Source: Hyphomicrobiales bacterium
GTDB taxonomy: Bacteria; Pseudomonadota; Alphaproteobacteria; Rhizobiales; Methyloligellaceae
Direction of reading: 5' to 3'
NCBI GenBank assembly: GCA_028280515.1
Contig: JANQLP010000046.1
Location: forward strand, 1-53,833
Length of the DNA stretch: 53,833 nt
Positions 16,944 through 37,160 of the stretch are shown here, one piece after another; the stretch's first letter is position 1, and each line of letters opens with the position of its first letter. The notes below the pieces were generated by a model. The model ran no database searches, had not been told where the DNA came from, and worked only from the letters and a program-made list of their open reading frames with translations. Made by a program: the position numbers and the translations under genes.

Positions 16944-19900
16944 ATGGCCAAACGCGACGCGTATTCGTCCGGTCCGGTTTCCGGCGGCAAAACGAAAAAC
17001 AAGAACACACCGGAGAGCTCGGCGGAGGCGGTACAAGTCGCCCAGGCCGACACTGACACCCAGAACCAGCCGTTCGATCTGAATGCGGCGCCGGTCAGGG
17101 CGAGTTTCAACTCGACCGCACCGGGTATGCGTATTGAGCTCCCGCCGGGTACGGCCATAGACAAGGTCTTCGTCTCCGGTCTCAACCTCTATCTCGTCCA
17201 GCCTGACGGCTCGGTGGTGGTGATCGTGGGCGGCGCCACGAACGTCCCCACACTGGTGCTTTCCTCCGGCGCCGTCATCCCGGCCGAAAAGCTGGAAGCT
17301 GCTCTCGAGGGTTCGCAGGAAGGCGTGCCCACAGCCGGGCCCGATGCGAGTGGGCCTGGCAGCAGCGGCGGCGATTTCGCGGTCAATCCGGGCGATATCG
17401 GCGGGCCGTTTGACCTCGGCGGGCTCCTCGGGCCTGCCGACGGGCCGGAACTGGGTCTGGTTCCTTCGGAGTTTGAGTTGCCGGAGGACCTCGAAGAGAT
17501 CATCGCCCTGCCTTTGATCGGCAACCCGGAACCGGGTTTCGTGGAAGAGGACGACCTCGATACCCGGGGCACCGGCGCTGCCGGCCCCAGGCAAGGCAAC
17601 GACCTTGACGGGTCGCGGCCCGATGCCCTCACCTTCACCGGCTCTCTGGACGTCAATTTCAACGGCACGCCCGGCACCATCGCCTTTGCCGGCGGCCTTG
17701 ATGGCACTACCTTCCAGGACGCCAACGGCAATCCCGTGACTTCGAACGGCCTGCCCGTCATCCTCTCACTCACCGACCCGCAGACGCTGATCGGTTTTAC
17801 GGATGCACCCGGCGGCGTGGACGGCCAGTTCGACCAGGGGCTTGACCATCAGATCTTCACCGTCACCATCGATCCCGCCGGCGCCGGGTCCTACACGATT
17901 AAAGTGTCCCACAACCTCGATCATCCAATCCCGGTCAATGACGGCCAGGACGGCGACACGGACTTCGACGACACCGACGGCTTCCCGACCCCGGGGGATG
18001 AAGAGTTTCTCGGCCTGAACTTCCCGTTCGTGGCCACCAACACGTTCGGCAGCGCGTCCGGCGTCTTCACCGTCTTCTGGCAGGACGACATGCCGGTGAT
18101 CGGCGTGCCGGCGGCGGATCTCGAGCCCGGCGACGAGTTCCGCGTCAACGAGCATATATCCCGATCGCAGGAAGAGCCGCAGGTGACGCAGCTTGCCGAC
18201 GGCCGCGTCCTGTTCACCTTCAGGACGGGCGACGACACCGACGGCGACACCAGCCCCAGCGGGATATCGGCGCGGATCGGCACGCCCGATGCCGGCGGAT
18301 CGATTAGTTTCGGCGATGAGTTCCGCGTCAACGAGCATATATCGTCAATTCAGTTCGATCCTCAAGCAACGCAGCTCGCCGACGGCCGAATTCTGTTCAC
18401 GTTCACGACGTTTGACGATACGGACGGCGACACCGACGGCGGGGTGTCGGCGCGGATCGGCACGCTCAACGCCGGCGGGACGATCGATTTCGGCGACGAG
18501 TTCCGCGTCAACGAGCATATCTCCGGTCGTCAGGGTGATCAGCAGGTGACGCAACTGGCCGACGGCCGGATCCTGTTCACCTTCCAGACGTTTGACGATG
18601 CGGACGGCGACACCAGCTTCGGCGGGGTGTCGGCGCGGATCGGCACGCTCAACGCCGGCGGGACGATCGACTTCGGCGACGAGTTCCGCGTCAACGAGCA
18701 TATAGACGAATTTCAAGACGAGCCGCAGGTGACGCAGCTTGCCGACGGCCGCATCCTGTTCACCTTCAGGACGGGCGACGACACCGACGGCGACACCAGC
18801 ATCGCCGGAGTGTCGGCGCGGATCGGCACGCTCAACGCCGGCGGGACGATCGATTTCGGAGACGAGTTCCGCGTCAACGAGCATATATCCGGAAGGCAGA
18901 TCGAGCCGCAGGTGACGCAGCTCGCCGACGGCCGCCTCCTGTTCACCTTCAGGACGGCTGACGACACTGACGGCGACACCAGCGGTGCCGGAGTGTCGGC
19001 GCGGATCGGCACGCTCAATGCCGGCGGGACGATCGATTTCGGCGAGGAGTTCCGCGTCAACGAGCATATAGACTCAACTCAGTTCGATCCGCAGGTGACG
19101 CAACTCGACGACGGCCGCATCCTGTTCACCTTCACGACGCGTGACGCCACGGACGGCGACACCGACGACAACGGGGTGTCGGCGCGGATCGGCACGCTCA
19201 ACGCCGGCGGGACGATCGATTTTAGCGACGAGTTCCGCGTCAACGAGCATATCTCAGACCGTCAGGACCAGCCGCAGGTGACGCAGCTCGACGACGGCCG
19301 CATCCTGATCACCTTCAGGACGCGTGACGACACGGACGGCGATACGAGCTCCGCAGGGGTGTCGGCGCGGATCATCGACATTCGCAGTATCGTCGATGAG
19401 GAGGGCCTGCCGGACGGTATCCCGGGCGGCGACGGCGATGTTGCCGGCGAGGTGCTGGTCGCGACCGGCGATCTCGCGATCTCCTGGGGCGCGGACAACG
19501 GCAATAACGGGTCCGGTGGCCTCGGCGACCGGATGGTCTTCTTCGCGCCCGATGATCCGACCATGGGCATGCAGACGCTCTCCGTGCGCGATCAGAACTT
19601 CAACGAGATCGAGCTGAAGGCGATCGTGTTCAACGCGATGAGCGGGCAATTCGAGCAGGTTGTGGTCGATATTGCGGGCGCGGGCACGGATACCCTGCTC
19701 GGCACCGCGACCGACGGCTCCGGCGCGGTTCACGACGTGTTCATGGTGACGCTGTCGGACCTCGGTAGCGGCGAATACACCTTCGAGCTCAAGGCGCCGC
19801 TGGTGCACCCCTTCACCGACGACGATCTTCAGAATGACGGCCCCGACACGTCGTTTGAGGACATACTGCGTCTGCGCTTCAGCTTTACGGCCAAGGACTC

Positions 19901-22900
19901 CGACGGCGACACGGACTGGAGCGAGTTCGAAATACTCGTCGACGACGACTCGCCGGTCCTGACAAGCGCCATGGAGATGGCAAGCGTGGACGAGGCGGAT
20001 TTGCGGACATTCTCCGCTACCAGCACCATAGAACCGCTGCGGACATTCGACGATCCGACGCCGACCTCCGAGGACACATTCGGGAGCTCCGTTGCCGTCG
20101 ACGGCAATTTCGTGGTTGTCGGTGCGCCCAGTGACGACACCGCCGGCCTCAATATCGGCCAGGTGCATCTGTTCGACGCCAACACAGGCGCGCTGATCCA
20201 CACCTTCGACGATCCGACTCCGTCGGCGGCAGGCGGCGACCTTTTCGGTGTCTCCGTTGCGGTCGACGGCAATTTCGTGGTTGTCGGTGCGAACTTTGAC
20301 GACACCTCCGGCGCCAGTTTCGGCCAGGCACATCTGTTCGACGCCACCACGGGCAATCTCATTCACACCTTCGACGATCCGAATCCGACAACATTCGACC
20401 TTTTCGGGAGCTCCGTTGCGGTCGACGGCAATTTTGTGCTGGTCGGTGATCCCTTTGATGAAACCGTCAGTCGCTCTGGCGGCGAGGCGTATCTGTTCGA
20501 CGCCACCACCGGCTTGCTGATCCGCACTTTCAACGATCCGACACCGGCACCCGACAATTTCGGGGCCGCCGTTGCGGTTCAAGGCAATTTCGTGCTGATC
20601 AGTGCGCCCGGTTCCAGCGAGGTGTTTCTGTTCGACGCCACCACGGGCAATCTCATTCACACCTTCGACGATCCGAATCCGACAACATTCGACCTTTTCG
20701 GGAGCGCCGTTGCGATCGACGGCAATTTTGTCCTGATCGGTGATCCCAGTGACAGCACCGCCGGCCCCTTTATCGGCCAGGCGCATCTGTTCGACGCCAC
20801 CACGGGCAATCTTATTCACACCTTCGACGACCCGACACCGACAATATTCGACAGTTTCGGGGTCTCCGTTGCGGTCGACGGCGATTTCGTGCTGATCGGT
20901 GCGCCCATTGACGGCACCGCCGGCGCCTTTGTCGGCCAGGCGCATCTGTTCGACGCCACCACCGGCGCGCTGATCCACACCTTCAACGACCCGACGGTGA
21001 CAAGCTTCGACGGTTTCGGTGGCTCCGTTGCGATCGACGGCGGCACGATACTGATCGGTGCGCTCGGTGATGACACGGCCGGCGCAAATGTCGGCCAGGC
21101 ACATTCGTTCGGTCCCACTGGCGAGCCGGTTCCGATATCGACCTCCCTTTCGCTCCTCTCGCTCGTAGACTTCGGCGCCGACGGACCGGGCGGCTTTACG
21201 CTCAAGGACGCGACCCAGCTTGGCGATCCGCCCGGTGTCATCACCGTCACCGACGAGAATGGCGCCACCGTCTCGCTCACCTCGATGGGCGATCCGGTGT
21301 TCTTTACAAGCTTCGACGACAGTATCGCCGGTCAGACGACGCTGACGGCGACGGCCAACGGCCGGGATATCTTCACCCTCACCGTGACCGAAGACGGTGA
21401 CGTCATCTTCACGCTTATCGGCAAGATCGATCACCCGCTCACAGACGACCCGACGACGACCGGCACGGTCGAGACCGCCTTCGAGGACACGCTGTTCTTC
21501 GATGTCGGCACGCTGATCAACGCCGCCGACGGCGACGGCGATACGATCATGCTGGGTCCCGATCAGGTGATCTTCAAGGTGGTGGACGACATCCCCGAGG
21601 CGGCCGGCATGGTGATGGGCACCGTGGATGAGGCTGATCTGAATGCGGATAGCCCCGTTGGCGACGATTTCGAAGTCAACACGACAACCCCGAACATACA
21701 GGACGACCCGGTGATCACGGCGCTTGAGGGCGGCGGCTTCGTGGTGGTGTGGGAAGACTCGAGCCGGACCGGGGGCGATACCTCGGGCGAGGCGGTCCGG
21801 GGGCGGGTTTTCAACACCGACGGCACGCCGGTCAACACGGACGATTTTGTCATTCCCACCACAACGCTGGACGGCCAGAACGACCCGGTGATCACGGCGC
21901 TTGAGGGCGGCGGTTTCGTCGTGGCGTGGGACGACGCGAGCCGGACCGGGGGCGACACCTCGAGCGGTGCAATCCGCGGGCGGGTTTTCAACGCCGACGG
22001 GACACCGGTCAACACGGACGATTTCCTCATCAACACCACAACGCTCAACACCCAGGACGAACCAGTGATCACGGCGCTTGAGGGCGGCGGCTTCGTGGTG
22101 GTGTGGGAAGACTCGAGCCGGACCGGTGACGACACCTCGAGCGATGCAGTACGCGGGCGGGTTTTCAACGCCGACGGCACGCCGGTCAACACCGATGACT
22201 TCGTCATCAACACGGCAACGCTGAATAGCCAGAACGACCCGGTGATCACGGCGCTTGAGGGCGGCGGCTTCGTGGTGGCATGGGACGACTTCAGCCAGAC
22301 CGGGGACGACATCTCGGGCGATGCAGTCCGCGGGCGCGTTTTCAACGCCGACGGGACGCCGGTCAACACGGACGATTTTGTCATTCCCACCACAACGCTT
22401 GACGGCCAGCGCGACCCGGTGATCACGGCGCTCAAGGGCGGCGGCTTCGCGGTGGCATGGGAGGACTTCAGCCAGACCGGGGGCGACACCTCGGGATCGG
22501 CCCTTCGCGGGCGCGTGTTCAACGCCGACGGGACGCCGGTCAATACGGACGATTTCGTCATTCCCACCACAACGCTCGACGACCAGCGCGACCCGGTGAT
22601 CACGGCGCTCGAGGGCGGCGGCTTCGCGGTGGCATGGGAGGACTTCAGCCAGACCGGGGGCGACACCTCGGGATCGGCCCTTCGCGGGCGCGTGTTTGCC
22701 GCCGACGGGACGCCGGTCAATACGAGCGACTTCCTCATCAACACCACAACGCTGAACAGCCAGTTCGACCCGGTGATCACGGCGCTCGAGGGCGGCGGCT
22801 TCGTCGTGGCGTGGCAGGACTCGAGCCAGACCGGGGGCGACACCTCGAACGGTTCAATCCGCGGCCGGGTTTTCACTGCCGACGGGACACCGGTCAATGC

Positions 22901-25900
22901 GAGCGACTTCCTCATCAATTCCACGACCTTCAGCGACCAGAACGCCCCGGTGATCACGGCGCTTGAGGGCGGCGGCTTCGCGGTGGCGTGGGAGGACGAG
23001 AGCGAGATCGGGGACGATGCCTCTGGTACCGCAATCCGCGCGCGGGTTTTCGATGCACTGGGTGTCCCCGTCGGCGTACGGACCACCCTCGACCTTTCAC
23101 CCCTCGTAGACTTCGGCGCCGACGGGCCGGGCGCGACCCCCTTCGCGCTCAAGGACGCCACGGTGCTGGGACCCGGTAACGGCCCGCTCGCCGTCGTGGG
23201 AGCGGACGAAAACGGCGACCCGGTCTCGCCCCTGACCTCCATGGGCGATACGGTTTTCTACACCGAGTTTACCTCGGTGAATGGCATCACCGTGCTGCTC
23301 GCGACCGCGGGGGGCGTGAATAATGACGAGCGGGAAATCTTCCAGCTGACGCTCACCGAAGCGGGCGAGGCCGCCTTCACGCTCATTGGAAAGATCGACC
23401 ACCCATTCACCGACGCAGACTTCCAGAATGACGGGCCGGAAACCGCGTTCGAGGACCGGTTGTTCATCGATATCGGCGGGCTGATCAACGCCACGGACGG
23501 CGATGGTGACACGATCATGCTCGATGACGGCCAGGTCATCTTCAAGGTGCTGGACGATATTCCCGAGACCAGCGGCATGGTCATGGCGACCGCTGGCGAG
23601 ATCGGGCTCGGCGGCGTCCCAGTGCCTGAACCGGAAACAGGCGAGTTCCTGGTGAACACCACCACCGACAATACCCAGCAAAACCCGTCGGTGGCCGCGC
23701 TCGATGGCGGTGGCTTCGTGGCCATCTGGCAGTCGTTAACGGGCGCCGGTCCAAACGATACGGATGTAATTGGCCAGCGTTATGACGACAGCGGCAACAA
23801 GATCGGCGGCGAGTTCACCGTGAACACGGTTTTGCCCGGCGCGCAGGGCGTCCCTTCGGTCGCCGCGCTTGACGGCGGCGGCTTCGTGGTGACGTGGCAG
23901 TCAACCAACCAGCTCCAGGACGTCTTCGGCCAGCGCTTCGACGCCAATGGCGATCCGGTGGGCGGCGAATTCCTTGTCAACACGGACACCGTGGGCCAGC
24001 AGTTTTCCCAGCAGGTTATCGGGCTTCCGGGCGGCGGCTTCGTGGTGGCCTGGGAGGACGGTATAGGCGACACCGAGATCATCGGTCAGGTTTACGACGC
24101 CGGCGGCGCTCCCGTGGGCGGCGACTTTCAGATCAATACCGAGACGTCCGGCCGACAGGGCTTTCCATCCCTGGCCCCGCTCGAGGGCGGCGGCTTCGTC
24201 GTGACCTGGGCATCCTTCGGTCAGGATACCGACGGCAGCACCGGCATCTACGGCCAGCGCTTCGACGCCAGTGGCGATCCCGTCGGCGACGAATTCCAAA
24301 TCAACACGTTTATCCCGAACGTGCAGACCCAGCCCTCGGTTGCCGCGCTTCAGGGCGGCGGTTTCGTGGTGACTTGGCAATCGTTTGGCCAGGACGGCAA
24401 CGGCAACGGCGTCTTTGGCCAGCGCTTCGACGCCAATGGCGACCCGGTCGGCGGCGAATTCCCGGTGAATACGTCAACCCTCGGCAGCCAGCAGGATGTA
24501 TCCGTTGTCGGGCTTGACGACAGCGGTTTCATGGTGATCTGGGAGACGGATTTAACCAACGACATTATCGGTCAGCGCTTTGGCGCCAACGGCAATCCGG
24601 TCGGCGGTGAAGTCCTGATCAACGAGACCGTGGCGGGCAATCAGGTCAATGCCGGATTCACGGGCGGCCGGTTTATCGACCAGCTCGCCTCCGGCGACAT
24701 TGTCGCGATCTGGAGGGGCGATCCGTCTATCGACAACACCGAAGTCTATGCGCGCATTTTCTCCGCCTTCCCCTTCGAAACCGCCACGATCGATCTCAAC
24801 ACGATCGTCGATTTCGGCGCCGACGGGCCGGCGGCAACGGACGCCTTCACGCTGAAGGATGCGACAATCCTCGATAATGGCGGCCCGCTGGCTGTCACCG
24901 CGCGGGACGAGAACGGCGACACTGTCACCGTCACCTCCATGGGCGACCAAGTCTTCTTCACCGGTTTCGACGACAGCACTCCGGGAGAGATTACGCTGAC
25001 CGCGACCGCGGCGGGACGCGACATCTTCACGCTCACGCTGACGGAAACGGGCGAGATCAGCCTCACGGTCCTTGGCGGGATCGACCACCCGTTCACCGAT
25101 CCCGACTTCCAGAATGACGGGCCGGAAACGGCGTTCGAGGACCGGTTGTTCATCGAGTTCGGCGGCCTGATCAACGCCACCGACGGCGACGGCGACACGA
25201 TCATGCTGGATGACGAACAGGTCGTCTTCAAGGTGACCGACGACATTCCGGAAGCCTCCGGCATGGTGATGGCGACGGTGGATGAGGCGGATTTGGGCAG
25301 CGTCGTGTTTTCGCGGACATTCGACGATCCGACGGTGACAACCAGTGACCTTTTCGGGGACGCCGTTGCGGTCGACGGCAATTTCCTGGTTGTAGGGGCG
25401 CGCGGTCACGACACCGCCGGTTCCTTTGGCGGCGACGCGCATCTGTTCGACGCCACCACCGGCGCGCTGCTGCAGACCTTCACCGACCCGACGGTGACGG
25501 GCAGCGACCAATTCGGGAGCTCCGTTGCGGTCGACGGCAATCTCGTGGTTGTCGGCGCACCCAATGACAACACCGGCGGTTCCTCAGCCGGCCAGGCGCA
25601 TCTGTTCGACGCCACCACGGGCGCGCTGATCCACACCTTCGACGATCCGACACCGACAGGCGGCGACTCTTTCGGTTTCAACGTTGCGATCGACGGCAAT
25701 TTCGTCCTGATCAGCGCGGATACTGACAGCACCAGCGATTTGTTTGCCGGCCAGGCGCATCTGTTCGACGCCACCACCGGCGCGCTTTTGCGCACCTTCG
25801 ACGACCCGACCCCGGCATTCTTCGACCGTTTCGGAGCCTCCGTTGCGGTCCAGGGCAATTTCGTGCTTGTAGGTACGCCCGGCGCCAACAGCTCCCCCGG

Positions 25901-28900
25901 CCAGGCGTTTCTGTTCAACGCCACCACCGGCGCGCTGCTGCAGACCTTCGACAATCCGACACCGGCAGTCGGCGACAATTTCGGCGGCCGCGTCGCGATC
26001 GATGGCAATTTCGTGGTTGTAAGTACACCCGGCGACGACACCGCCGGCGACGATGTCGGCCAAGCCTATCTGTTCGACGCCACCACCGGTGCGCTGATCC
26101 ACACCTTCAACGACCCGACACCGACAAACGGCGACGTTTTCGGAAGGTCCGTTGCGGTCGACGGCAATTTGGTGCTGGTTGGTGCGCCATTTGACGATAC
26201 CGCCGGCAACAATGTCGGCCAGGCCTATCTGTTCGACGCCACCACCGGCGCGCTGCTACAGATCATAAACGATCCGACGTTGACGAACGAGGACCTGTTC
26301 GGCGCCTCGGTTGCAATCGACGGCGGCACTATACTGATCGGCGCGCCCGAAGACGATACCGACGGCTCCGATGTCGGCCAGGCCCATCTGTTCAATTTCA
26401 ACCAGATCAACCAGTCGATCTCGGCAACCCTCGACCTCACCCTGCTCGTCGACTTCGGCGCCGACGGGCCCGACGCCGTTCCGTTCGCGCTCACGACCGT
26501 CGTGGCGCAGGATTTCGGCACGTTCACCTCCGCCGGTGAGCAGGTACGCATCGTCTCCGACGGCACCACCCTCACCGGCTTCCGCGACGACGGCGCCGCT
26601 GCCGGCAACGGCACCCTGGACGGCGACGACACAGTCGTCTTCACGGTCGAGATCAACGGCAACGACGTGGTCTTCACCCTGTTCGAGAAGCTCGATCACA
26701 CGGGTAACGCCGATCCGCTGGAACTCGAATTCGGCCAGTTCATCAACGCCATCGACGGCGATGGCGACACGATCATGCTCGACGCTGCCCAGGTGATCTT
26801 CAAGGTCGAGAACGCACCGGTAGAATGGGTTGTGAAGACCCGCGAGGAGAGTTCGAATACGCTCGCCAGCACAGTCGATATTACCGAGGGCGAGACGGCC
26901 GTGTTCGAGGTCCAGTTTGCGAGCCAGGGGTTGAAGCAGGGCGAGATGGCCACGATCCGGCTGGAACTTGGAGGGATCTCGGGGTCGGTCGACAACAACG
27001 ATTTCGTTGAAGACTTATCCCCCAGTTTTGGCCGGTTGATTCTCGACGACATGGTTGCCCAGGGCGGCACGCCGCTCGGCTCTACGGTCACCATCGATAT
27101 CCTCGACGGCGCCACCAAGGTCGGCGAGGCGCTTTACGACGGGGCAAACCGGGTGCTGAAGGTCACGGCGACCGACGGCGACATCCCGACGGGGCTGACG
27201 CTGCTTTCCTTCGACCTGACGACGCTCGTGAATGACGACGGTGCCAGCGCATCTGAATCCCTGACCATCAGTGTCACCGACGGCCCCGTGACGGAAGGGG
27301 CGGGCGACGTGGATGACGAGGCATCGGCGACGATGAGCGACGCCACGATCACCATCAACGATGCGCCTGAAATCATCTCTAACGGCGGTGGCGCTACGGC
27401 ATCGGTGTCTGTTGCGGAAAAGGCCACATTCGTTACCGACGTGAACGCATCCGACCCGAACCTCGACCCGGTCACCTTCGCGATCACCGGCGGCGCCGAC
27501 CAGAACCTGTTCACGATCGACACGAATACCGGCGTGCTGAGCTTCATTACCGCGCCCGATTTCGAGACACCGATCGACCAAGGCGGGACGCCCGGCGACA
27601 ACATATACGAGGTGGAAGTCACCGCCGCCGACGACCGCGGTGGAACGGATATCCAGACCATCGATGTGACGGTGACGGACGTTTTCGAGTTCGCGCCGAA
27701 CTTCTTCGGCGAAAATGTCACCTTCAAACAGCTGGCCCCGGACCAGAACACGATTGTCGACGACAATACGGCCACCGCGCAGGTCGGCAACGACCTCGAG
27801 TTCGACGGTTTGCCGATCGGAGTAGAAGACGACGCCATAGACATAGACGTCAGCGCGAACCAGATCGTCGTGACCTTCGACCCCCTGCTTGGTTTTCCTG
27901 ATAGCGGTGGCTTCAACGGCTTTTCGATATCCGATACCGCCGATACCATCGCGTCCATAACGAATGTGGTTCTCGACCCTGGCACGACTGGCCTAACGTC
28001 TGACAGGATCACGTCCGATGGCGAAGAGATCTTCATTGATCTGTCGGGCCTCGTCTTTCTGCGTGGCGCGAGTTTCACCCTCGACGTGACCTTCGCCAGC
28101 GTCGCCGACCCGATCATCCTCGATCTGGACGGCGACGGCATCGAACTCTCGACGATCAGTGATTCCGTAGCCTTCGACCTCAACGCCGACGGCGTGGCCG
28201 AGGAGATGGCCTGGACCGCGGGCGAGGACGGCATCCTGGTCATGGACCTCGACGGCTCGGGCGCCATCGAAGACGGCAGCGAGATGTTCTCGCCCTGGTT
28301 CAACGACGGCGGTTTCGTTGACGCGCTCGACGCGCTGGCCTCGCTCGACAGCAATGGCGACGGGGTCATCGACGTGAACGACGATGCCTTCGCCGACATC
28401 CTGGTCTGGGTCGACGCGAACCATGACGGCGTCAGCCAGGCCGGCGAGCTCACGAGCCTCGCCGAGCAGGACATCGCATCGATCGATCTCGGCGCTCAGT
28501 CAGCGAACACGCAGATCAACGGTCAGCAGGTGATGGCCGAGGGTTCCTACACGCTTGAGGATGGCACGACCCAAGACTATGTGGTGGTGGACTTCGACAC
28601 CGCAGCACCCGCGAGCGTCGTGACAGCCACGCCGATCATGGCGACGCGCAAAGTCGACGCGACCCTGTCGGGCAACCAGCTGGTCTTTGCGTTCCTTGGC
28701 GCGGCTTTCGCGTCCGAGTTCATCACGTCGGTTGCGATCGACATCTCGGCCCAGGCCGCGACCTTCGACGCGACCGATCTGCAACTCACGCTCGACTCAG
28801 GTGGCGATCTCTCCGGCGTGACTGCCGAAGTCTCCGACGACGGCAACACGCTCACCATCACCATGCCCGACGGCGTGGTGATGCAAGGCGATGAGTTGTC

Positions 28901-29495
28901 CATCGGCGTCACCACCGCGGACGGTGAGGACCTCGATCCGGGTGCAGTCAACGTCTCGGTCTCCTTCAATGACGGGTCGAGCCTCGAAGCGGACCTTGAG
29001 CCTGCCGCGTCCGGCGACGGCGCATCCGCCACCGCTTCCCTGGAAACAGACGTGGTCGTCGGCCAGACGATCCTGGGCACGGAAGGCGATGACATCCTGC
29101 TTGGTGGCGAGGGCGACGACATCCTGCTCGGTGGTGGGGGCGACGACGTGCTCGATGGCGGCGCGGGACAGAACACCCTCACCGGCGGCGAAGGCGCGGA
29201 CACCTTCGTTCTCGGCAGCATCGACATTGCCGACATCATCACCGACTACGACTTCGAGGAAGGCGACGAGATCGACCTTTCCGCGTTGCTGGGCGGAAGC
29301 AACGGCAACACGGAAAATTCAGTCCGGGTTGTCGTCGAAGACGGCGATGAGGCCAGCCTCGAGGTCGATGTCACCGGCAGCGGCGACAACTTCGCCAAGG
29401 CCGCGACGCTTCAGGGTATCGTGACGGGTGATACGGTCAGGGTCGTCCTTAGCGATGATGGTGGCGAGGCCAACACGTCCAATATCGTCGTTTAG
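16944..29495 (+). CDS. Giant type I-secreted adhesin-like protein with five propeller-type arrays
   Basis: The product has 4183 residues; GAGGG lies 6 nt before the ATG. The N-terminal 120 residues (VQVAQADTDT..., IELPPGTAIDKVFVSGLNLY) resemble the retention module of large repeat adhesins that stay in the outer membrane exporter. DUF5801-like modules (marks DGDGDTIML and VDDIPEASGMVM) separate five blade-repeat arrays at about residues 397-811, 1034-1394, 1575-2045, 2233-2608 and 2792-3153. Then follow a Calx-beta-like and a cadherin-like domain (about 3475-3583), an FrpC-like segment with IILDLDGDGIEL (3723-3890), a few GGxGxD calcium nonapeptides (4043-4086) and a type I secretion C-terminal target region with ADTFVL and ITDYDFEEGD. 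It is strongly acidic, as usual for Ca2+-dependent secreted proteins. No secretion genes are adjacent. Likely role: cell-surface adhesion or biofilm (inference). Confidence 0.93.
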   Translation: MAKRDAYSSGPVSGGKTKNKNTPESSAEAVQVAQADTDTQNQPFDLNAAPVRASFNSTAPGMRIELPPGTAIDKVFVSGLNLYLVQPDGSVVVIVGGATNVPTLVLSSGAVIPAEKLEAALEGSQEGVPTAGPDASGPGSSGGDFAVNPGDIGGPFDLGGLLGPADGPELGLVPSEFELPEDLEEIIALPLIGNPEPGFVEEDDLDTRGTGAAGPRQGNDLDGSRPDALTFTGSLDVNFNGTPGTIAFAGGLDGTTFQDANGNPVTSNGLPVILSLTDPQTLIGFTDAPGGVDGQFDQGLDHQIFTVTIDPAGAGSYTIKVSHNLDHPIPVNDGQDGDTDFDDTDGFPTPGDEEFLGLNFPFVATNTFGSASGVFTVFWQDDMPVIGVPAADLEPGDEFRVNEHISRSQEEPQVTQLADGRVLFTFRTGDDTDGDTSPSGISARIGTPDAGGSISFGDEFRVNEHISSIQFDPQATQLADGRILFTFTTFDDTDGDTDGGVSARIGTLNAGGTIDFGDEFRVNEHISGRQGDQQVTQLADGRILFTFQTFDDADGDTSFGGVSARIGTLNAGGTIDFGDEFRVNEHIDEFQDEPQVTQLADGRILFTFRTGDDTDGDTSIAGVSARIGTLNAGGTIDFGDEFRVNEHISGRQIEPQVTQLADGRLLFTFRTADDTDGDTSGAGVSARIGTLNAGGTIDFGEEFRVNEHIDSTQFDPQVTQLDDGRILFTFTTRDATDGDTDDNGVSARIGTLNAGGTIDFSDEFRVNEHISDRQDQPQVTQLDDGRILITFRTRDDTDGDTSSAGVSARIIDIRSIVDEEGLPDGIPGGDGDVAGEVLVATGDLAISWGADNGNNGSGGLGDRMVFFAPDDPTMGMQTLSVRDQNFNEIELKAIVFNAMSGQFEQVVVDIAGAGTDTLLGTATDGSGAVHDVFMVTLSDLGSGEYTFELKAPLVHPFTDDDLQNDGPDTSFEDILRLRFSFTAKDSDGDTDWSEFEILVDDDSPVLTSAMEMASVDEADLRTFSATSTIEPLRTFDDPTPTSEDTFGSSVAVDGNFVVVGAPSDDTAGLNIGQVHLFDANTGALIHTFDDPTPSAAGGDLFGVSVAVDGNFVVVGANFDDTSGASFGQAHLFDATTGNLIHTFDDPNPTTFDLFGSSVAVDGNFVLVGDPFDETVSRSGGEAYLFDATTGLLIRTFNDPTPAPDNFGAAVAVQGNFVLISAPGSSEVFLFDATTGNLIHTFDDPNPTTFDLFGSAVAIDGNFVLIGDPSDSTAGPFIGQAHLFDATTGNLIHTFDDPTPTIFDSFGVSVAVDGDFVLIGAPIDGTAGAFVGQAHLFDATTGALIHTFNDPTVTSFDGFGGSVAIDGGTILIGALGDDTAGANVGQAHSFGPTGEPVPISTSLSLLSLVDFGADGPGGFTLKDATQLGDPPGVITVTDENGATVSLTSMGDPVFFTSFDDSIAGQTTLTATANGRDIFTLTVTEDGDVIFTLIGKIDHPLTDDPTTTGTVETAFEDTLFFDVGTLINAADGDGDTIMLGPDQVIFKVVDDIPEAAGMVMGTVDEADLNADSPVGDDFEVNTTTPNIQDDPVITALEGGGFVVVWEDSSRTGGDTSGEAVRGRVFNTDGTPVNTDDFVIPTTTLDGQNDPVITALEGGGFVVAWDDASRTGGDTSSGAIRGRVFNADGTPVNTDDFLINTTTLNTQDEPVITALEGGGFVVVWEDSSRTGDDTSSDAVRGRVFNADGTPVNTDDFVINTATLNSQNDPVITALEGGGFVVAWDDFSQTGDDISGDAVRGRVFNADGTPVNTDDFVIPTTTLDGQRDPVITALKGGGFAVAWEDFSQTGGDTSGSALRGRVFNADGTPVNTDDFVIPTTTLDDQRDPVITALEGGGFAVAWEDFSQTGGDTSGSALRGRVFAADGTPVNTSDFLINTTTLNSQFDPVITALEGGGFVVAWQDSSQTGGDTSNGSIRGRVFTADGTPVNASDFLINSTTFSDQNAPVITALEGGGFAVAWEDESEIGDDASGTAIRARVFDALGVPVGVRTTLDLSPLVDFGADGPGATPFALKDATVLGPGNGPLAVVGADENGDPVSPLTSMGDTVFYTEFTSVNGITVLLATAGGVNNDEREIFQLTLTEAGEAAFTLIGKIDHPFTDADFQNDGPETAFEDRLFIDIGGLINATDGDGDTIMLDDGQVIFKVLDDIPETSGMVMATAGEIGLGGVPVPEPETGEFLVNTTTDNTQQNPSVAALDGGGFVAIWQSLTGAGPNDTDVIGQRYDDSGNKIGGEFTVNTVLPGAQGVPSVAALDGGGFVVTWQSTNQLQDVFGQRFDANGDPVGGEFLVNTDTVGQQFSQQVIGLPGGGFVVAWEDGIGDTEIIGQVYDAGGAPVGGDFQINTETSGRQGFPSLAPLEGGGFVVTWASFGQDTDGSTGIYGQRFDASGDPVGDEFQINTFIPNVQTQPSVAALQGGGFVVTWQSFGQDGNGNGVFGQRFDANGDPVGGEFPVNTSTLGSQQDVSVVGLDDSGFMVIWETDLTNDIIGQRFGANGNPVGGEVLINETVAGNQVNAGFTGGRFIDQLASGDIVAIWRGDPSIDNTEVYARIFSAFPFETATIDLNTIVDFGADGPAATDAFTLKDATILDNGGPLAVTARDENGDTVTVTSMGDQVFFTGFDDSTPGEITLTATAAGRDIFTLTLTETGEISLTVLGGIDHPFTDPDFQNDGPETAFEDRLFIEFGGLINATDGDGDTIMLDDEQVVFKVTDDIPEASGMVMATVDEADLGSVVFSRTFDDPTVTTSDLFGDAVAVDGNFLVVGARGHDTAGSFGGDAHLFDATTGALLQTFTDPTVTGSDQFGSSVAVDGNLVVVGAPNDNTGGSSAGQAHLFDATTGALIHTFDDPTPTGGDSFGFNVAIDGNFVLISADTDSTSDLFAGQAHLFDATTGALLRTFDDPTPAFFDRFGASVAVQGNFVLVGTPGANSSPGQAFLFNATTGALLQTFDNPTPAVGDNFGGRVAIDGNFVVVSTPGDDTAGDDVGQAYLFDATTGALIHTFNDPTPTNGDVFGRSVAVDGNLVLVGAPFDDTAGNNVGQAYLFDATTGALLQIINDPTLTNEDLFGASVAIDGGTILIGAPEDDTDGSDVGQAHLFNFNQINQSISATLDLTLLVDFGADGPDAVPFALTTVVAQDFGTFTSAGEQVRIVSDGTTLTGFRDDGAAAGNGTLDGDDTVVFTVEINGNDVVFTLFEKLDHTGNADPLELEFGQFINAIDGDGDTIMLDAAQVIFKVENAPVEWVVKTREESSNTLASTVDITEGETAVFEVQFASQGLKQGEMATIRLELGGISGSVDNNDFVEDLSPSFGRLILDDMVAQGGTPLGSTVTIDILDGATKVGEALYDGANRVLKVTATDGDIPTGLTLLSFDLTTLVNDDGASASESLTISVTDGPVTEGAGDVDDEASATMSDATITINDAPEIISNGGGATASVSVAEKATFVTDVNASDPNLDPVTFAITGGADQNLFTIDTNTGVLSFITAPDFETPIDQGGTPGDNIYEVEVTAADDRGGTDIQTIDVTVTDVFEFAPNFFGENVTFKQLAPDQNTIVDDNTATAQVGNDLEFDGLPIGVEDDAIDIDVSANQIVVTFDPLLGFPDSGGFNGFSISDTADTIASITNVVLDPGTTGLTSDRITSDGEEIFIDLSGLVFLRGASFTLDVTFASVADPIILDLDGDGIELSTISDSVAFDLNADGVAEEMAWTAGEDGILVMDLDGSGAIEDGSEMFSPWFNDGGFVDALDALASLDSNGDGVIDVNDDAFADILVWVDANHDGVSQAGELTSLAEQDIASIDLGAQSANTQINGQQVMAEGSYTLEDGTTQDYVVVDFDTAAPASVVTATPIMATRKVDATLSGNQLVFAFLGAAFASEFITSVAIDISAQAATFDATDLQLTLDSGGDLSGVTAEVSDDGNTLTITMPDGVVMQGDELSIGVTTADGEDLDPGAVNVSVSFNDGSSLEADLEPAASGDGASATASLETDVVVGQTILGTEGDDILLGGEGDDILLGGGGDDVLDGGAGQNTLTGGEGADTFVLGSIDIADIITDYDFEEGDEIDLSALLGGSNGNTENSVRVVVEDGDEASLEVDVTGSGDNFAKAATLQGIVTGDTVRVVLSDDGGEANTSNIVV
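18132..19376 (+). repeat. Propeller-type array 1: seven 60-61-residue repeats
   Basis: There are seven units of the form EFRVNEHI...PQVTQLADGRILFTF...DGDT...GVSARIGT, with a period of 60 or 61 codons. Only the last unit lacks the GTLNAGGTIDFG link. A period near 60 with hydrophobic-strand spacing and a count of seven suits a beta-propeller. Confidence 0.85.
20043..21126 (+). repeat. Propeller-type array 2: seven FG-GAP-like repeats
   Basis: There are seven units of TFDDPTP...FGSSVAVDGNFVVVGAP...GQAHLFDATTGALIH, about 52 residues each. The FG...GAP pattern is that of FG-GAP/integrin-alpha-type blades. Unit 4 is short and has VAVQGNF in place of VAVDGNF and no full DDTAG loop. Confidence 0.88.
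21666..23079 (+). repeat. Propeller-type array 3: eight 59-residue repeats
   Basis: There are eight units of DFVIPTTTLDGQ...DPVITALEGGGFVVAWED...GDTSG..RGRVFNADGTPVNT. Units 5 and 6 are nearly identical in DNA (22441 onward against 22618 onward, offset 177 bp), so the eighth unit looks recently added. Confidence 0.88.
23640..24768 (+). repeat. Propeller-type array 4: seven 51-57-residue repeats
   Basis: There are seven units of GEFLVNT...QQ.PSVAALDGGGFVVTWQS...VFGQRFDANGDPVG. They are related to array 3 (GGGFVVxW and the D/NGxPV turn) but more diverged from one another, with variable loops. Confidence 0.85.
25317..26404 (+). repeat. Propeller-type array 5: seven FG-GAP-like repeats
   Basis: There are seven units of the same type as array 2. 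Unit 4 again is the short one with VAVQGNF and no full calcium-type loop, and unit 7 again ends with VAIDGGTILIGA. The whole array thus appears to be a block duplicate of array 2. Confidence 0.88.
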
Positions 29496-29776: not shown

Positions 29777-30541
29777 TTATTGGCAATTCGCCTTCGTTAT
29801 GCCAGCCAAATGGAAGAGACGCGCATTGGGGTGATCGGAGGGTTTGAACGGTGCAGACAGCTCGTACTGCCTATTGCTACCCTTTCTCAAACCAAATACG
29901 AGAAAATCAACCGCGCAGCCGGCGTCCAAGGCGGCCATCTCTTCCGGTGTGAGCTTCTTGTGCAAATCTCGAGTTGCGCCCCACATGTACGGGCCAAGTA
30001 GAATTGGGTAAGTGCCTCCCGCAGGGGGCGTTGCTCCCCTTCTCCGAACCGCAACCCAGGCTTCGTATTGGCCAGCCTCATGGGCTGGTAGAAAATTCCG
30101 AAGTTTGATTTCATCCTCTCCTAACCGAAAACTCAGCATCCCGTCCGTTGGCTTATAGTCCCATTTGGTAAATTGGAGGCGGGCTAACTCGGGATTGGCA
30201 CAGCCCTGATTGACTACGAAGTATGCGATGCCGGCACCGACTGCAACCGATGCTATGCCTCCTGTTATCGCAACTGTAAGAGGATGGTTGCCTAGCAATG
30301 GCACTACCACATCTCCTGTTGCGGCGGCGTACCCCCCCAAAAACGCGGAGGATAAGCCTACGGCCAAAGCAAAGATCAGCGTGACCCAAAACGCATCACC
30401 GCACTCGATGCGCTTTCCTGTAAGTACAATAATCAGCGGGAATGCCATTAGGAACAATAGTGTCATGGTACCTACCGCCAACCCGGCAACAAGTGCCCAG
30501 GTTGGTCGCGGATCCGGCGCAGGATGAGAAGGTGCGGTCAT
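29777..30541 (-). CDS. Membrane-anchored protein of unknown function
   Basis: The product has 254 residues. Three membrane segments are likely near residues 15-40, 50-72 and 88-110, followed by a soluble C-terminal domain of about 140 residues with no recognised motif. The segments LGPYMWGATRDLHKKLTPEE and VDFLVFGLRKGSNRQYEL look like an ordered domain. GGAGCTGAACAGAT precedes the ATG. It is the last gene of the minus-strand cluster that begins at 38330, 157 nt after the M15-like gene. The soluble part could sit on either side of the membrane. Confidence 0.7.
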   Translation of the reverse strand: MTAPSHPAPDPRPTWALVAGLAVGTMTLLFLMAFPLIIVLTGKRIECGDAFWVTLIFALAVGLSSAFLGGYAAATGDVVVPLLGNHPLTVAITGGIASVAVGAGIAYFVVNQGCANPELARLQFTKWDYKPTDGMLSFRLGEDEIKLRNFLPAHEAGQYEAWVAVRRRGATPPAGGTYPILLGPYMWGATRDLHKKLTPEEMAALDAGCAVDFLVFGLRKGSNRQYELSAPFKPSDHPNARLFHLAGITKANCQ

Positions 30542-30698
30542 ATCTGTTCAGCTCCGATTAGTTCGCAATCCAAAACCAGAAGGATGAGTGAGTAACCGAG
30601 TAGCTTGGTCATCTTTGTGAATCCGTCTAATTCAAAGAGCTGTTCATCTTGGGACGGTGCTGGCAGCATCCAAAGACGTGGGTCTTCTCAAGCGCCCC

Positions 30699-31313
30699 CT
30701 ATCCAACGGCTGCGTTTGTTCCAATACTCCACTCCGAAACATCGTCGTACCTGGCCTTTGTGGGGAGCACAGAGATATGGACGTGCTTGGTGTGCGGATT
30801 CGCACCATTGTAACGTCGCCCCTCCCAAGGAGCCGCGCCGCCGATCGCTTTGGAATTGAAGATCTTCCTGTTCCAGATGATGTACTTGACGCGTCTGTCG
30901 CGATCGCTGCGGATTGCATCGACGATTTTTTGAGCATCGCAGCCGCTGTTCGGGTCGTGTGTAATGTCGATTGCAGTCACGACACCCACTCCACCATCGC
31001 GGATGTTCGGACAATGATCGGAACGTCCCCCACCGCCGCAATGGCGTTGGTCCCCTATAGTTCCATCACTTGCTTTGTTGCGCCCGGGAAAGGCCGCATC
31101 GACCTGCCGTCGAAGCTGCAATAGTGATTTCGCCGCGCGCCATCGACTGATGGCGTCAAGCATTGCCTTTGACTCGTTCGAAGAGCTACCATCCATAGAC
31201 TCCGCAAAGGCTTCGTTGTCATCGAGAGTTTCCTTTGATCCAAACTCTTTGACTCTGAGTTCTTCTGGAATTTCATCAATAGGAAATGTTGTTTCAGTTT
31301 TTTCGTCGGTCAT
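30699..31313 (-). CDS. M15-like (ARB_07466-type) putative peptidoglycan peptidase
   Basis: The product has 204 residues. The C-terminal half (about 78-190) carries the marks of a D-Ala-D-Ala peptidase-like fold: SDHCPNIRDGGVGVV, AIDITHDP with the metal-type Asp, VKYIIWNRKIF, then NPHTKHVHISV with the HxxHxH end. The His/Asp/His set matches zinc-binding M15 peptidases and the related ARB_07466 C-terminal domain known from actinobacterial and phage proteins. The N-terminal 75 residues are charged and probably disordered. No signal peptide is visible, so export or a lysis-like release would need another route. GAAGGACC precedes the ATG. It lies in the protease/envelope cluster, 76 nt after the barrel candidate. 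Confidence 0.65.
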   Translation of the reverse strand: MTDEKTETTFPIDEIPEELRVKEFGSKETLDDNEAFAESMDGSSSNESKAMLDAISRWRAAKSLLQLRRQVDAAFPGRNKASDGTIGDQRHCGGGGRSDHCPNIRDGGVGVVTAIDITHDPNSGCDAQKIVDAIRSDRDRRVKYIIWNRKIFNSKAIGGAAPWEGRRYNGANPHTKHVHISVLPTKARYDDVSEWSIGTNAAVG

Positions 31314-31389
31314 TGGGTCCTTCGCTTTCGCTTCGTGCTGTTCGAGGCCTGACTTATCCAGTCCATAAAGATGACCCGCCGTTGGGGCT

Positions 31390-32685
31390 TCACCGAGCTG
31401 GATCGCCCAGCTTCATTGTGAAAGCACCCTTGATGAAATTTTCGTCCTGTAGCGTTGTTTCTGCTCGCCCCTTCGCATATTCCAGCTCAACGCCAAAATT
31501 CTTCTTTTGTCCGAACTTGTATTCCACCTTCGAAGAAAATCTCTGAAAATCATCCAGAGGTCCTGCAAGAGTTTTTAGCCACTTGTAAGCCACCGACAGC
31601 TTGATTTTGTCGAGTATATTTTCTTCATTTGCCGGATTTCCTGTCAGAACCAGCTCCACAGCGCCGCCAACCCTGCTGTAATCCTTGGTTCTGAAGAGTT
31701 CTGCATTTCCACCGGCGTCAAATACGTGGCCATATTCAAATCGTCCGCTTGGCTCAACAAACATGACAATGTGTTGCTTGGGGCCGATCGGTTGGAGGAA
31801 CCTGAAATACGGGAGAGGCAAGGACGGATAGTAGATGACCTCACCGTCCAATATCGATGAATTCCCGACATCATCCGTGAGATACTGGGTCTCGAAAGCA
31901 ACTGTGTGGCCGATTCCTCCCCGCTCGACGTTACGGAAATGCACGTCGAAATGCGCACCGAACCCAAGCTTGTTTACTTCATCACCAACGCGAGAAGTGA
32001 ATCGCCGCTCGTATGTCACAAACGGAATGAAAGAGAAAGGATTGAATAGCAGCGGGCTCTCGGATGTACCCTTGTTTGTCAGGAATCCATTGAATACAAT
32101 GCCGGCCGCAAGTTTGGCCTCCGCTTTCCAAATATCATCTTCAAAATTGTTGCTTCCCGAGAAAGATGCCGACGATGCAGTTGGCGCTTTTAGAGGCTTA
32201 CCCAGATCTTCCGGCTTTCCTCGCAAGCTGAATGTCTTTTTGACCTGTTGCGGCGGTTCTGGCGAACCGTTACTGGCGTTCCCGACTGTACCACTCGATG
32301 CCGACGTGCGTTTAAGGCAAATTATATGAACGCAGCCGGAGAAAAAGTCGGAACCACCAAAATTTTCTTTTTTTTGACATCCAGGAGCCGGGTCCAATCT
32401 GAAAATTGACTTGTCGTGGAAATTTAGGAAACTCGTAAAACTGGTTTCTCTTTGCACCAGTTGTTTCCAGTCTTTCAGCGGCGCTTTGGTCGGATCTTTT
32501 ACGCCCCATTTGTTTGTTTTCGCACGATGAACCGCGAGCTTGTCGGGGTCGACTCGCGATACGCCGTCTCGAGAGATTTTGCAGATATTGCTCGACTCGA
32601 ATCCGGTCACCTCACCTGCCCAGGAATTATGCGATGCGCCCAGCGATAAGAATGTGATTGCGGCATATATTTTGATTTTTCTCAT
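31390..32685 (-). CDS. Secreted protein, probable outer-membrane beta-barrel
   Basis: The product has 431 residues. A signal peptide (MRKIKIYAAITFLSLGASHNSWAG) would be cut after residue 23 or 24. The N-terminal part (25-150) has two cysteine pairs and no known motif. The second half alternates hydrophobic and polar residues with many aromatic strand ends (KLSVAYKWLKTL, SKVEYKFGQKKNFGVELEYA, GAFTMKLG), like a small outer-membrane barrel, although the last residue is not aromatic. No named family is recognised. It is 36 nt downstream of the trypsin-like gene on the same strand. Confidence 0.7.
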   Translation of the reverse strand: MRKIKIYAAITFLSLGASHNSWAGEVTGFESSNICKISRDGVSRVDPDKLAVHRAKTNKWGVKDPTKAPLKDWKQLVQRETSFTSFLNFHDKSIFRLDPAPGCQKKENFGGSDFFSGCVHIICLKRTSASSGTVGNASNGSPEPPQQVKKTFSLRGKPEDLGKPLKAPTASSASFSGSNNFEDDIWKAEAKLAAGIVFNGFLTNKGTSESPLLFNPFSFIPFVTYERRFTSRVGDEVNKLGFGAHFDVHFRNVERGGIGHTVAFETQYLTDDVGNSSILDGEVIYYPSLPLPYFRFLQPIGPKQHIVMFVEPSGRFEYGHVFDAGGNAELFRTKDYSRVGGAVELVLTGNPANEENILDKIKLSVAYKWLKTLAGPLDDFQRFSSKVEYKFGQKKNFGVELEYAKGRAETTLQDENFIKGAFTMKLGDPAR

Positions 32686-32721
32686 GTTGAAAATTTCAAA
32701 TTATATTGATTAATTTCTCAA

Positions 32722-34167
32722 TTAAGTACGATCTTCTATTTTTTTGACGACAGCATCCATGTATTCATAAAATTTCTTTTCATAAAATTTCAAAGAAAAA
32801 TAATCATCAAATAAAATACCCCCATATCTTTTTTCCAATATTCTCCTTATGTCATTTGAAATATCTAACCACTTTCCTCTCTGGCCGGGGAACAGAGAAG
32901 AAATCTTGATATTCAGAAGGTTTTCTCCATCATTTCTCAAGACATTTCGCACAGCCAAGACAACGTCAATCCGAATGCTGTCCCGCGCGTCTTCAGTGAT
33001 TGTTCCAGTCAGTCCTTCAGAATCTGCACCTTGTCTGCCACGAAATCGGCTGAGGATTCTGTTGCCTTGAGAACCAAGACTGTTGTCGCTGATCTCGCCG
33101 GCACCCAACGCAGGCAGGGACGCTGATGTGAGGCGCTCTTCGAAGTTTACAGATGTCGCCTTCTGCGCCATTTGAGAGTTCACCTCGAGCAAATCCTCGG
33201 CAGTCGCCAAGCGAACATTTAGGCGCGACATCACCTTGGTCAAATTGCAGGCAATGGCGTGCTCCTGGCGCGGATTTGGATCGGTTTCGCCGGCAAAATG
33301 CAGTCCTACGGCCATCCCGCTCGATTGGTGATACCAAAGGGAGCCACTGTCCCCACCAGATGAAATTTCTTCATCGCCTGGGTTATCAGGTTGTCTGGAA
33401 ACGAGTTTGAAGCCGCTGACGCCGATTCTCTTATGAACTCCGGGGCTCACCTCGTATCTGATGAAATACGTGCCCTCACCATCCACACGTCCAGCAGTCT
33501 GTCCGGTGGTGCGGCCTGATTTGACGAGAACTTCGCCGAGCTTAGGGTCGCGAGTGCCTTTCAGAAAATCAAACGTGCCGTATAGAAAAGGCAGCCATCC
33601 TCGCACACCATTCAAATGCGCTATTGCCGCGTCACCTTCGGCGTCCAGCATTGAACGTTCGAGAAACGCAACTGTATCGCGCGGCGCGCGTCCGGAGTCA
33701 TAAGGTCCAGGCTGGACAATTGAGTCGCCCGGCTTTGATTTTGCGCCCGCGAGCACATGCCAGTTGCTCAGAATCGAAGGTCGCTCGTTCACCTCATCGA
33801 TGACTATCGCGCCCAGCGAACCGGCAGTGGAATACTCGTGACCGATGGAGATCCCACCCAATAGAGTGTCGAAGCGAGATTGATGCTCAACCGGTTGGGT
33901 GGCGCGCCGGGTTTCATACGTGGCTTCAATTACGTCAACCGGAACGCCATCGATTTGCTTTGGAAAGAGTTCGACCGCTTCAAGCGCGGCCTCGTCAATC
34001 TTCTCGCTCACGTGAATTCGAACGACCGTCTCTGATGTCTGCTTGCCGGCCTCCCATTTGTAACCGACATCAATCGCTGTCACATTGCTACGGGTGCCAA
34101 ATTTTTTCTCAGCGGCGTCGCGCGCTTTGTCTAACTGAGTCCGCGTGATTTGTTTGGAGGAGGTCAT
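32722..34167 (-). CDS. Trypsin-fold serine protease (NAL1-like/S1 type)
   Basis: The product has 481 residues without a signal peptide. A protease core lies at about 100-310: GGISIGHEYSTAGSLGAIV, the catalytic His137 in LSNWHVLAG, Asp179 in EGDAAIAHL and Ser274 in GGDSGSLW, with VKSGRTTGQTAG between. This layout is that of bacterial S1-type proteases related to plant NAL1. The N-terminal 100 residues look like a regulatory or propeptide-like domain. A C-terminal domain (about 330-481) has no recognised match and is more AT-rich at its end. GGAGAAAA precedes the ATG. It lies between a small Cys-containing gene and the barrel candidate. Its substrate is unknown. Confidence 0.8.
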   Translation of the reverse strand: MTSSKQITRTQLDKARDAAEKKFGTRSNVTAIDVGYKWEAGKQTSETVVRIHVSEKIDEAALEAVELFPKQIDGVPVDVIEATYETRRATQPVEHQSRFDTLLGGISIGHEYSTAGSLGAIVIDEVNERPSILSNWHVLAGAKSKPGDSIVQPGPYDSGRAPRDTVAFLERSMLDAEGDAAIAHLNGVRGWLPFLYGTFDFLKGTRDPKLGEVLVKSGRTTGQTAGRVDGEGTYFIRYEVSPGVHKRIGVSGFKLVSRQPDNPGDEEISSGGDSGSLWYHQSSGMAVGLHFAGETDPNPRQEHAIACNLTKVMSRLNVRLATAEDLLEVNSQMAQKATSVNFEERLTSASLPALGAGEISDNSLGSQGNRILSRFRGRQGADSEGLTGTITEDARDSIRIDVVLAVRNVLRNDGENLLNIKISSLFPGQRGKWLDISNDIRRILEKRYGGILFDDYFSLKFYEKKFYEYMDAVVKKIEDRT

Positions 34168-34223
34168 GCTTTTCTCCGGGTCAGAAAAAAATCAAATAAA
34201 TCAGCCTGTTGATTTGCAGCACC

Positions 34224-34514
34224 TTAGTTCTGAAGTGCCTTGAGTTTCGGCTTGGACGCTTCCGCCTCTTCCGCGTAGCAGGCCTCGAGATGCCAGCAGT
34301 TTTCCGTGCTTCGCGGATAACCGCAGGCGGTCGTCAGAACGTCCTTGCCCTCGAGTTCATCAAGCGCCTTTTTTGCCTGTTCGTTTGCGGGTTTCACGCG
34401 AACCGGCCCGATTATTGGCGTGTCGAGAATGTGTGTGGCGCCATCCATGCAAGGAGACGGATAGATGGGGCAGACATAACCGCCCAGGCATATCGGAGCA
34501 TCGACGGGTTTCAT
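34224..34514 (-). CDS. Small cysteine-containing protein of unknown function
   Basis: The product has 96 residues and six cysteines (CLGGYVC, SPCMDG, TACGYPR, ENCWHLEAC), which suggests a metal site or disulfides. Segments IIGPVRVKPANEQAKKALD and DELEGKDVLTTACGYP hint at a small folded domain. No signal peptide is seen. AAGGACCC lies before the ATG, much like the M15-like gene, and the gene lies 56 nt before the trypsin-like protease on the same strand. A partner of the protease is possible but unproven. Confidence 0.6.
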   Translation of the reverse strand: MKPVDAPICLGGYVCPIYPSPCMDGATHILDTPIIGPVRVKPANEQAKKALDELEGKDVLTTACGYPRSTENCWHLEACYAEEAEASKPKLKALQN

Positions 34515-35076
34515 GATTGGGTCCTTCTACTGTTAGATACTCTGCAATAATCGTTTCCTGATCGCCGGACACAGGCCGAAAAGAGCAACGCCCGTTGACC
34601 GCCGCTAGAGATGGCGGCAACGGGCGCGCAAGGTTTGAGGGAGGCGATGGAAAACGATTTGGTTATGGAAAATTGAGCGCCTTTTGCCCCCCAGCGGCCG
34701 GATAATTGAGCGCGTGTTTGGCCCAAAAGACCCGCCGTTATTGCCTGCCGGCATTGCAATCTGAGCGATACGTTCATCGGTATCGTGCTCCGCTTCACCC
34801 AACTTCGACAAGTATTGCTCTGTTCGAAGGGTTCTGACTGATAGAACTTGGGGTGCATTATTACGCCCACGCGTGAGACGAGCGTGATTTGCGCCGTAAA
34901 CGGGCGTGAAATGTTCGTGAAAAGATAAGGCTTATCTAATTTTCGGTGATTTTTTCGGCCAATTCGTTCGTCACGAAAGGGATCGAAATGCACGCTTCAG
35001 ATATGCGAGCACTGAAACATTCTGATGCTGAAACTTCAGATTTTTCTATTCTATTTATGTGTGTTCTGAACAGGAA
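34515..35076. other. Intergenic stretch with a strong hairpin
   Basis: This stretch of about 560 bp between the subtilase and the small Cys protein has no supported gene. Short frames overlap on both strands without family resemblance. It contains a hairpin at 34589-34626 and may separate two transcription units of the cluster. Confidence 0.55.
34589..34626 (-). terminator. GC-rich hairpin between cluster halves
   Basis: CGCCCGTTG and CAACGGGCG are perfect arms. They continue inward with CCGCC/GGCGG pairing around an 11-nt loop, with one bulge. No clear T-run follows on the minus strand. It may end the PAP2-subtilase transcript or act as an attenuator. Confidence 0.45.
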
Positions 35077-37158: not shown

Positions 37159-37160
37159 AG

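Follow-up and report, generated by a model that had tools for sequence, protein, structure and literature searches.

What does a bacterium build when a single protein carries five separate arrays of blade-size repeats, and do such arrays close into rings? The question is raised by contig JANQLP010000046.1 of a Hyphomicrobiales bacterium of the family Methyloligellaceae (assembly GCA_028280515.1), of which we analyzed a stretch of 53,833 nucleotides, hereafter the window. Positions 16944–29495 of its plus strand hold an intact open reading frame (ORF), whose translation shows no internal stops and a single terminal stop. It encodes a protein of 4183 amino acids (aa; 432 kDa, pI 4.05) with no cysteine at all, and the arrays make up nearly half of its length. 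As judged by sequence, the reading of the arrays as closed beta-propellers is well supported. The whole protein is probably, if by no means securely, a giant surface-displayed adhesin of the type I secretion system (T1SS), with several propeller heads carried on a backbone of T1SS-143/DDxP modules.

The arrays contain 7, 7, 8, 7 and 7 units of 45–61 aa, and repeat families detectable at the DNA level span all five, their copies being 61–91% identical to their reference copies. Array 1 (18129–19376, on the plus strand like all features of this protein; aa 396–811) has units starting at aa 396, 457, 517, 578, 639, 700 and 761, array 2 (20031–21113; aa 1030–1390) at aa 1035, 1088, 1143, 1196, 1241, 1294 and 1347, and array 3 (21663–23081; aa 1574–2046) at aa 1574 to 1987 in steps of 59 aa. 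Array 4 (23640–24770; aa 2233–2609) has its unit starts at aa 2233, 2289, 2341, 2393, 2449, 2504 and 2555, and array 5 (25311–26408; aa 2790–3155) at aa 2793, 2846, 2899, 2952, 3002, 3055 and 3108. These positions confirm the five arrays and their unit counts as placed by a first-pass annotation of the window. Its assignment of arrays 2 and 5 to the FG-GAP type is borne out by Pfam, where FG-GAP_2 matches in 14 stretches (E = 5.1e-97). Arrays 1, 3 and 4 had been taken for three other repeat types; they are instead three subtypes of one family, with mutual hhalign probabilities of 94.4, 94.9 and 99.1%, against less than 3% for comparisons with FG-GAP. We name this family WX, after its core Q..P.V..L..GG.VV.W; by these profile comparisons no relation can be detected between WX and FG-GAP. 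Across 51 WX arrays, we found no Pfam or NCBIfam model able to explain the WX repeat. The commonest family matches over them, CopC (27/51 arrays, best E = 5.6e-9, covering 25 residues in one member inspected) and PDIAV_lipo (11/51), were taken as spurious, as was a Pro_racemase match at aa 672–720, inside a WX array (29.9 bits, cut-off 27).

The number of units recurs among the relatives. Counting relied on single-unit models and took in arrays of three or more units from 61 loci and the 4183-aa protein, and then from two named plasmid loci; shorter arrays were excluded, as were loci L001–L038, most of which lie in regions covered again by later loci. After filling of internal gaps, seven units are present in 68 of 86 WX arrays and 16 of 18 FG-GAP arrays (64 and 16 in the raw counts), with the limits that the regions were chosen by their match to seven-unit array profiles, which favors sevens, and that duplicated arrays, such as two in L061, are not independent. 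Eight units are found in three WX arrays: array 3, one in the paralogue L040 of the host genome and one in L042, from another genus of the same family. One FG-GAP array has six units. Locus L080 enters the WX counts as a single entry outside the sevens (30 units raw, 34 gap-filled). Its ORF of 1936 aa is made of five head-to-tail copies of 363 aa. A shift by one copy length gives 98.9% identity, and each copy has a proline-rich linker and, by eye, seven WX blades (in all, 30 model matches plus four blade-size gaps); the seven-blade set has thus been duplicated as a unit.

Amplification also takes place at the level of the single blade. Every blade has its nearest relative within its own array in WX arrays 1 and 3 of the 4183-aa protein (mean blade-to-blade identity 78% and 75%), in WX arrays of L041, L043 and L052, and likewise in FG-GAP arrays of L041, L056, L095 and in one of those of L098. 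This suggests that single blades were amplified, stopping at seven, or at eight in array 3. We saw no position-wise inheritance of blades among the three eight-unit arrays, where blades compared in register are no more alike than blades compared with a shift, so that the number seems to be kept while the blades are homogenized. A third repeat type, ELWxxDGT, has nine units in all four of its arrays in the host genome, which belong to the DDxP proteins L040 (C193, aa 364–2120) and L104 (C49, aa 1426–1904), and these are candidate nine-bladed propellers. Elsewhere ELWxxDGT arrays have seven units with a gap and eight units in two other genomes, and the locus is split in a third; nine units are therefore not universal.

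The ends of the arrays carry a second line of evidence. In the one-strand, or velcro, type of propeller closure, the chain begins with the strand that will form the outer edge of the last blade and stops one strand short. We searched for the outer-strand motif at both ends of the seven- and eight-unit arrays of the 61 loci and the 4183-aa protein, with the threshold set at the 95th percentile of non-array windows, which about 5% would pass by chance (about three WX arrays at either end). At the start of the array, ahead of the first blade, the WX motif is present in 37 of 54 arrays; at the end, behind the last blade, it is present in 0 of 53. The internal control of the test passes in 50/54. 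For FG-GAP the motif is present at 8/16 starts and 0/10 ends. All five arrays of the 4183-aa protein show the velcro phase. The ELWxxDGT arrays of L040, by eye, begin and finish at another strand, yet have nine units each.

Solved structures provide relatives for one of the two families. The profile of the FG-GAP arrays matches integrin alpha chains, whose heads are seven-bladed propellers, with a whole-chain E of 3.5e-12 (0.0064 for the best single stretch), and matches to WD40 chains are weaker. Arrays 2 and 5 share the FG-GAP blades with integrin alpha and differ in sitting within a T1SS carrier protein; the DxDxDG calcium motif of integrin FG-GAP blades was not seen by eye in either array. 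A search of PDB with six WX arrays gave no match to E = 1, and all 51 WX arrays gave weak ones: an endo-arabinase (E = 0.0037), a pneumolysin chain (0.16) and four other glycosidase chains (0.4–0.9). We read the arrays as closed propellers because of the recurring counts, the velcro phase, the integrin relatives of the FG-GAP arrays and the duplication of whole arrays. The closed rings expected by the first-pass annotation thus stand at the level of sequence, and from this we infer closure in three dimensions.

Between the arrays lies a regular backbone. T1SS-143/DDxP modules separate arrays 1 and 2 (19656–20027), 2 and 3 (21243–21653, TIGR03660), 3 and 4 (23205–23588) and 4 and 5 (24918–25301), and a T1SS-143 module follows array 5 (26454–26780). 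The spacers had been described as DUF5801-like; Pfam gives no DUF5801 match to E = 1 in the protein, and T1SS_rpt_143 (TIGR03660) matches instead, in five stretches (E = 1.8e-50, 170.6 bits, cut-off 66.05). One T1SS-143 module, searched against PDB, has no relative to E = 1. DDxP motifs are found at aa 381, 1001, 1548, 2204 and 2766, each then followed by a propeller array; by eye, DGDGD stands 14 aa before three of the five, DSDGD before the one at aa 1001 and neither before the one at aa 381. The insertion place lies after the DDxP motif and before an (I/L)DLxxLVDFGADG segment, and DDxP is separated from the GADG of that segment by 401–505 aa at all five arrays. Arrays 2, 3 and 5 come after a VDEADL segment and array 4 after a degenerate version, and array 1 lies just ahead of that segment; the insertion place is near-constant across modules but not identical to the residue.

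Other proteins show the same place empty or differently filled. The paralogue L041 has one module with the two edges only 28 aa apart, with no array between them, and two later modules that hold an FG-GAP and a WX array. L042 has empty places of 27–59 aa in addition to the one with its eight-unit WX array, and L040 has three such places with nine-unit ELWxxDGT arrays and one with its eight-unit WX array. Nearly one backbone place therefore takes at least three apparently unrelated repeat families (FG-GAP, WX and ELWxxDGT) or nothing.

The two ends of the protein bear on its export. Near the C-terminus are an RTX nonapeptide region (29046–29168; about aa 4035–4075 with limits set by eye, the best PF00353 stretch being aa 4042–4070) and a type I secretion C-terminal target domain (29232–29432; aa 4097–4163; TIGR03661, 29.2 bits, cut-off 17.6), so that the protein has these two traits of an RTX adhesin. 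A cadherin-like stretch lies further upstream (27405–27674; aa 3488–3577), with a Pfam score of 25.6 bits, below the cut-off of 28.8. The N-terminal region (16944–17543; aa 1–200) shares 43–70% identity, where it aligns, with nine other chassis proteins, including the DDxP paralogue L105 (58%), and is possibly a retention region; no Pfam match was found in aa 1–395. Four genus and family relatives, L044, L045, L046 and L048, have N-termini 48–65% identical to it, and no WX or FG-GAP arrays were found in them, some of their contigs being cut so that arrays may be missed. An LssB-type T1SS ATPase (888 bits, cut-off 693) is encoded on another contig, near L105, and two matches to PF06035, the LapG family of proteases, lie elsewhere in the genome. 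The 4183-aa protein may use the LssB-type exporter and may undergo regulated release.

In the explanation that we favor, the backbone would be a row of T1SS-143/DDxP modules with a whole closed propeller plugged in near one point of each, four of them seven-bladed and one eight-bladed. Velcro closure would bring both ends of a propeller next to each other, the arrangement needed for a domain that buds sideways from a split backbone domain; a ring with its ends together would thus suit insertion into such a domain. Each propeller would serve as a head that binds a ligand, be it a sugar, a matrix polymer or a protein, held off the axis of the adhesin, and five heads would permit multivalent binding.

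Several results weigh against this explanation. The strand test is weak for FG-GAP, where the internal control passes 9/16 arrays and the start motif appears in half, and in 16 of 54 WX arrays the outer strand is detected neither before the first blade nor after the last, which may reflect divergence. The solved relatives of WX are only weak ones. Fewer units than seven (3–6) are detected in 14 of 86 WX arrays even after gap filling, where blades may be missed or lost, and the FG-GAP locus L093 has 18 irregular units. The limits of TIGR03660 put the insert between modules, whereas those of the DDxP repeat put it inside one, and by the former a propeller need not split a module. A scan of 15 ORFs of the window, up to position 38330, showed no T1SS gene. 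The N-terminus has PTAGP, as do most of the nine relatives in the block that they share with it, where LapG substrates carry the di-alanine site of the RTX-adhesin retention module. The first-pass annotation had named counts that vary freely among close homologues as evidence against propellers; this is not seen for array 3, whose counterparts in L040 and L042 also have eight units, and elsewhere seven dominates, yet with the short WX arrays as exceptions. Such arrays, together with adjacent units of 45–61 aa, are what open beta-solenoids or Ig-like extender repeats of incidental number would offer, an account we regard as highly improbable in view of the seven units in most arrays, the lack of an outer strand after the last blade in all 53 WX arrays and the integrin alpha match of FG-GAP.

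The propellers might also be strung along the axis as beads or spacers and make the adhesin longer, its true ligand site lying in the C-terminal third. A poly-propeller stalk, as the first-pass annotation had it, agrees with the TIGR03660 limits, by which arrays fall between successive modules, and with L080, which strings five propeller-size copies on short proline-rich linkers. A velcro-closed ring with adjacent ends would, however, make a poor in-line spacer, and a place that is empty in one protein and taken by unrelated repeat types in others looks more like a socket for swappable heads. Because the propellers come shortly after DDxP in one module after another, and the place is empty in a module of a paralogue, heads on a backbone are the best reading of the sequence, and we consider the stalk unlikely. 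A third account makes the WX arrays enzyme-like and the protein a surface enzyme of several domains or a scavenger of glycans. Of the six PDB sequences matched by WX, five are glycosidases, presumably propellers themselves, with the endo-arabinase the best and the pneumolysin chain the sixth, and Pfam reports Glyco_hydro_43 in 6/51 and BNR_4 in 1/51 WX arrays; these glycosidase-type matches are nevertheless weak and partial, the blades of arrays 1 and 3 are so alike that little room is left for a unique catalytic site, and we know of no FG-GAP array that is an enzyme. This account appears improbable to us, and heads mounted on a T1SS-143/DDxP backbone remain our preferred explanation.

How widespread are such proteins? 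WX was matched in 34 and FG-GAP arrays in 26 of 385 genomes of the class Alphaproteobacteria, the host genome included in both. Among 62 array-bearing ORFs, 17 have at least two arrays, or 18 if the run of five in L080 is taken as several; the ORFs were drawn from the best matches, and this share is no survey. One relative came from a scan of genome contigs. Two alphaproteobacterial plasmid loci, L102 and L103, resemble the 4183-aa protein in encoding giant multi-array ORFs, a likeness judged from their WX arrays, and differ in that no FG-GAP array was detected in either. QIE43225.1, annotated as a tandem-95 repeat protein, has eight WX arrays, all of seven units; the ORF of WP_081536244.1, annotated as an Ig-like domain-containing protein, has six arrays, five of them with seven units, and its annotated start falls just inside the first. 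On this sequence record, multi-propeller giants recur in the class with up to eight arrays per protein, and the 4183-aa protein is one of many. A poly-propeller protein is thus unusual, as had been supposed, when set against the RTX adhesins of the literature compared, which in the portions available are for the most part rods of Ig-like domains bearing two or three heads, but not when set against its own relatives.

Whether these proteins form a large undescribed class we put at even chances: many-headed type-I-secreted adhesins, in which unrelated complete propellers of seven, eight or nine blades would be interchangeable cassettes sharing one site of the DDxP backbone, the bacterium would swap discs to vary its heads, and WX would be a propeller family not modeled by Pfam or NCBIfam. 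If true, this would supply natural propeller scaffolds with near-identical blades, reveal a cassette logic by which giant adhesins acquire new binding specificities, and give a testable function to proteins annotated as tandem-95 repeat, Ig-like domain-containing or hypothetical.

Two further contigs contain related repeats. A planctomycete metagenome-assembled contig (L039) has a 4628-aa ORF, open at both ends, with four FG-GAP arrays of seven units. A viral contig (L101) has a WX-like stretch (37% identity, E = 2e-23 among candidates) in the 1072-aa product of its ORF at 3039–6254, which may be a phage protein with a propeller; the contig also has an ORF that by eye resembles a terminase.

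The 4183-aa protein belongs among the known DDxP/RTX adhesins and is new in carrying several predicted propellers. DDxP proteins, in the accessible part of the account by Di Nocera and De Gregorio (2020; PMC7730722), are T1SS-type giants whose modules end in DDxP with DGDGD 11–19 aa before it, as in our protein; growth by insertion was proposed for them, most groups have no recognized retention module, and unlinked T1SS genes are also known. That part describes no propellers, whereas here a whole array follows each of five DDxP motifs. For the RTX adhesins AhLap (PMC12077191) and FrhA (PMC10865825), the sections available take insertion in a split Ig-like domain to indicate a ligand-binding domain that buds out, and they describe two or three heads in each protein, of sugar-binding, peptide-binding, ice-binding, RTX-like or vWFA type. 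AhLap and FrhA are likewise giant T1SS adhesins with an RTX C-terminus, and their folded domains inserted in the backbone would have a counterpart in the propellers; the 4183-aa protein differs in having five propellers spread over most of its length, and a word search finds no "propeller" in the main texts of either paper. The nearest system in the literature found, as far as the available text goes, is BapP of Pseudoalteromonas tunicata (PMC12153261), also a large adhesin of biofilms, for which a propeller is predicted and export by a T1SS is possible. It differs in having a signal peptide and one predicted five-bladed N-terminal propeller followed by 12 Ig-like domains. Among the matches listed, mostly from openly accessible literature, no title or opening of an abstract describes a multi-propeller T1SS adhesin.

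Neighbors of the gene in the window include a TctAB transporter and a CoA-transferase. Among plasmids, the best match of TctA is a Paracoccaceae record (67%), in line with a host that is probably alphaproteobacterial. Further off, two minus-strand features lie near each other: a large RTX protein (1–7515; HCBP_related and cadherin-like), whose frame runs off the edge of the window, and a gene resembling HlyC-type acyltransferases (8762–9364). On the other side, a row of minus-strand ORFs extends over 29780–37197; three have no Pfam match, a 481-aa protein has an NAL1_N match below the cut-off, and a 706-aa protein has a subtilase match just above it (24.4 against 21.8 bits).
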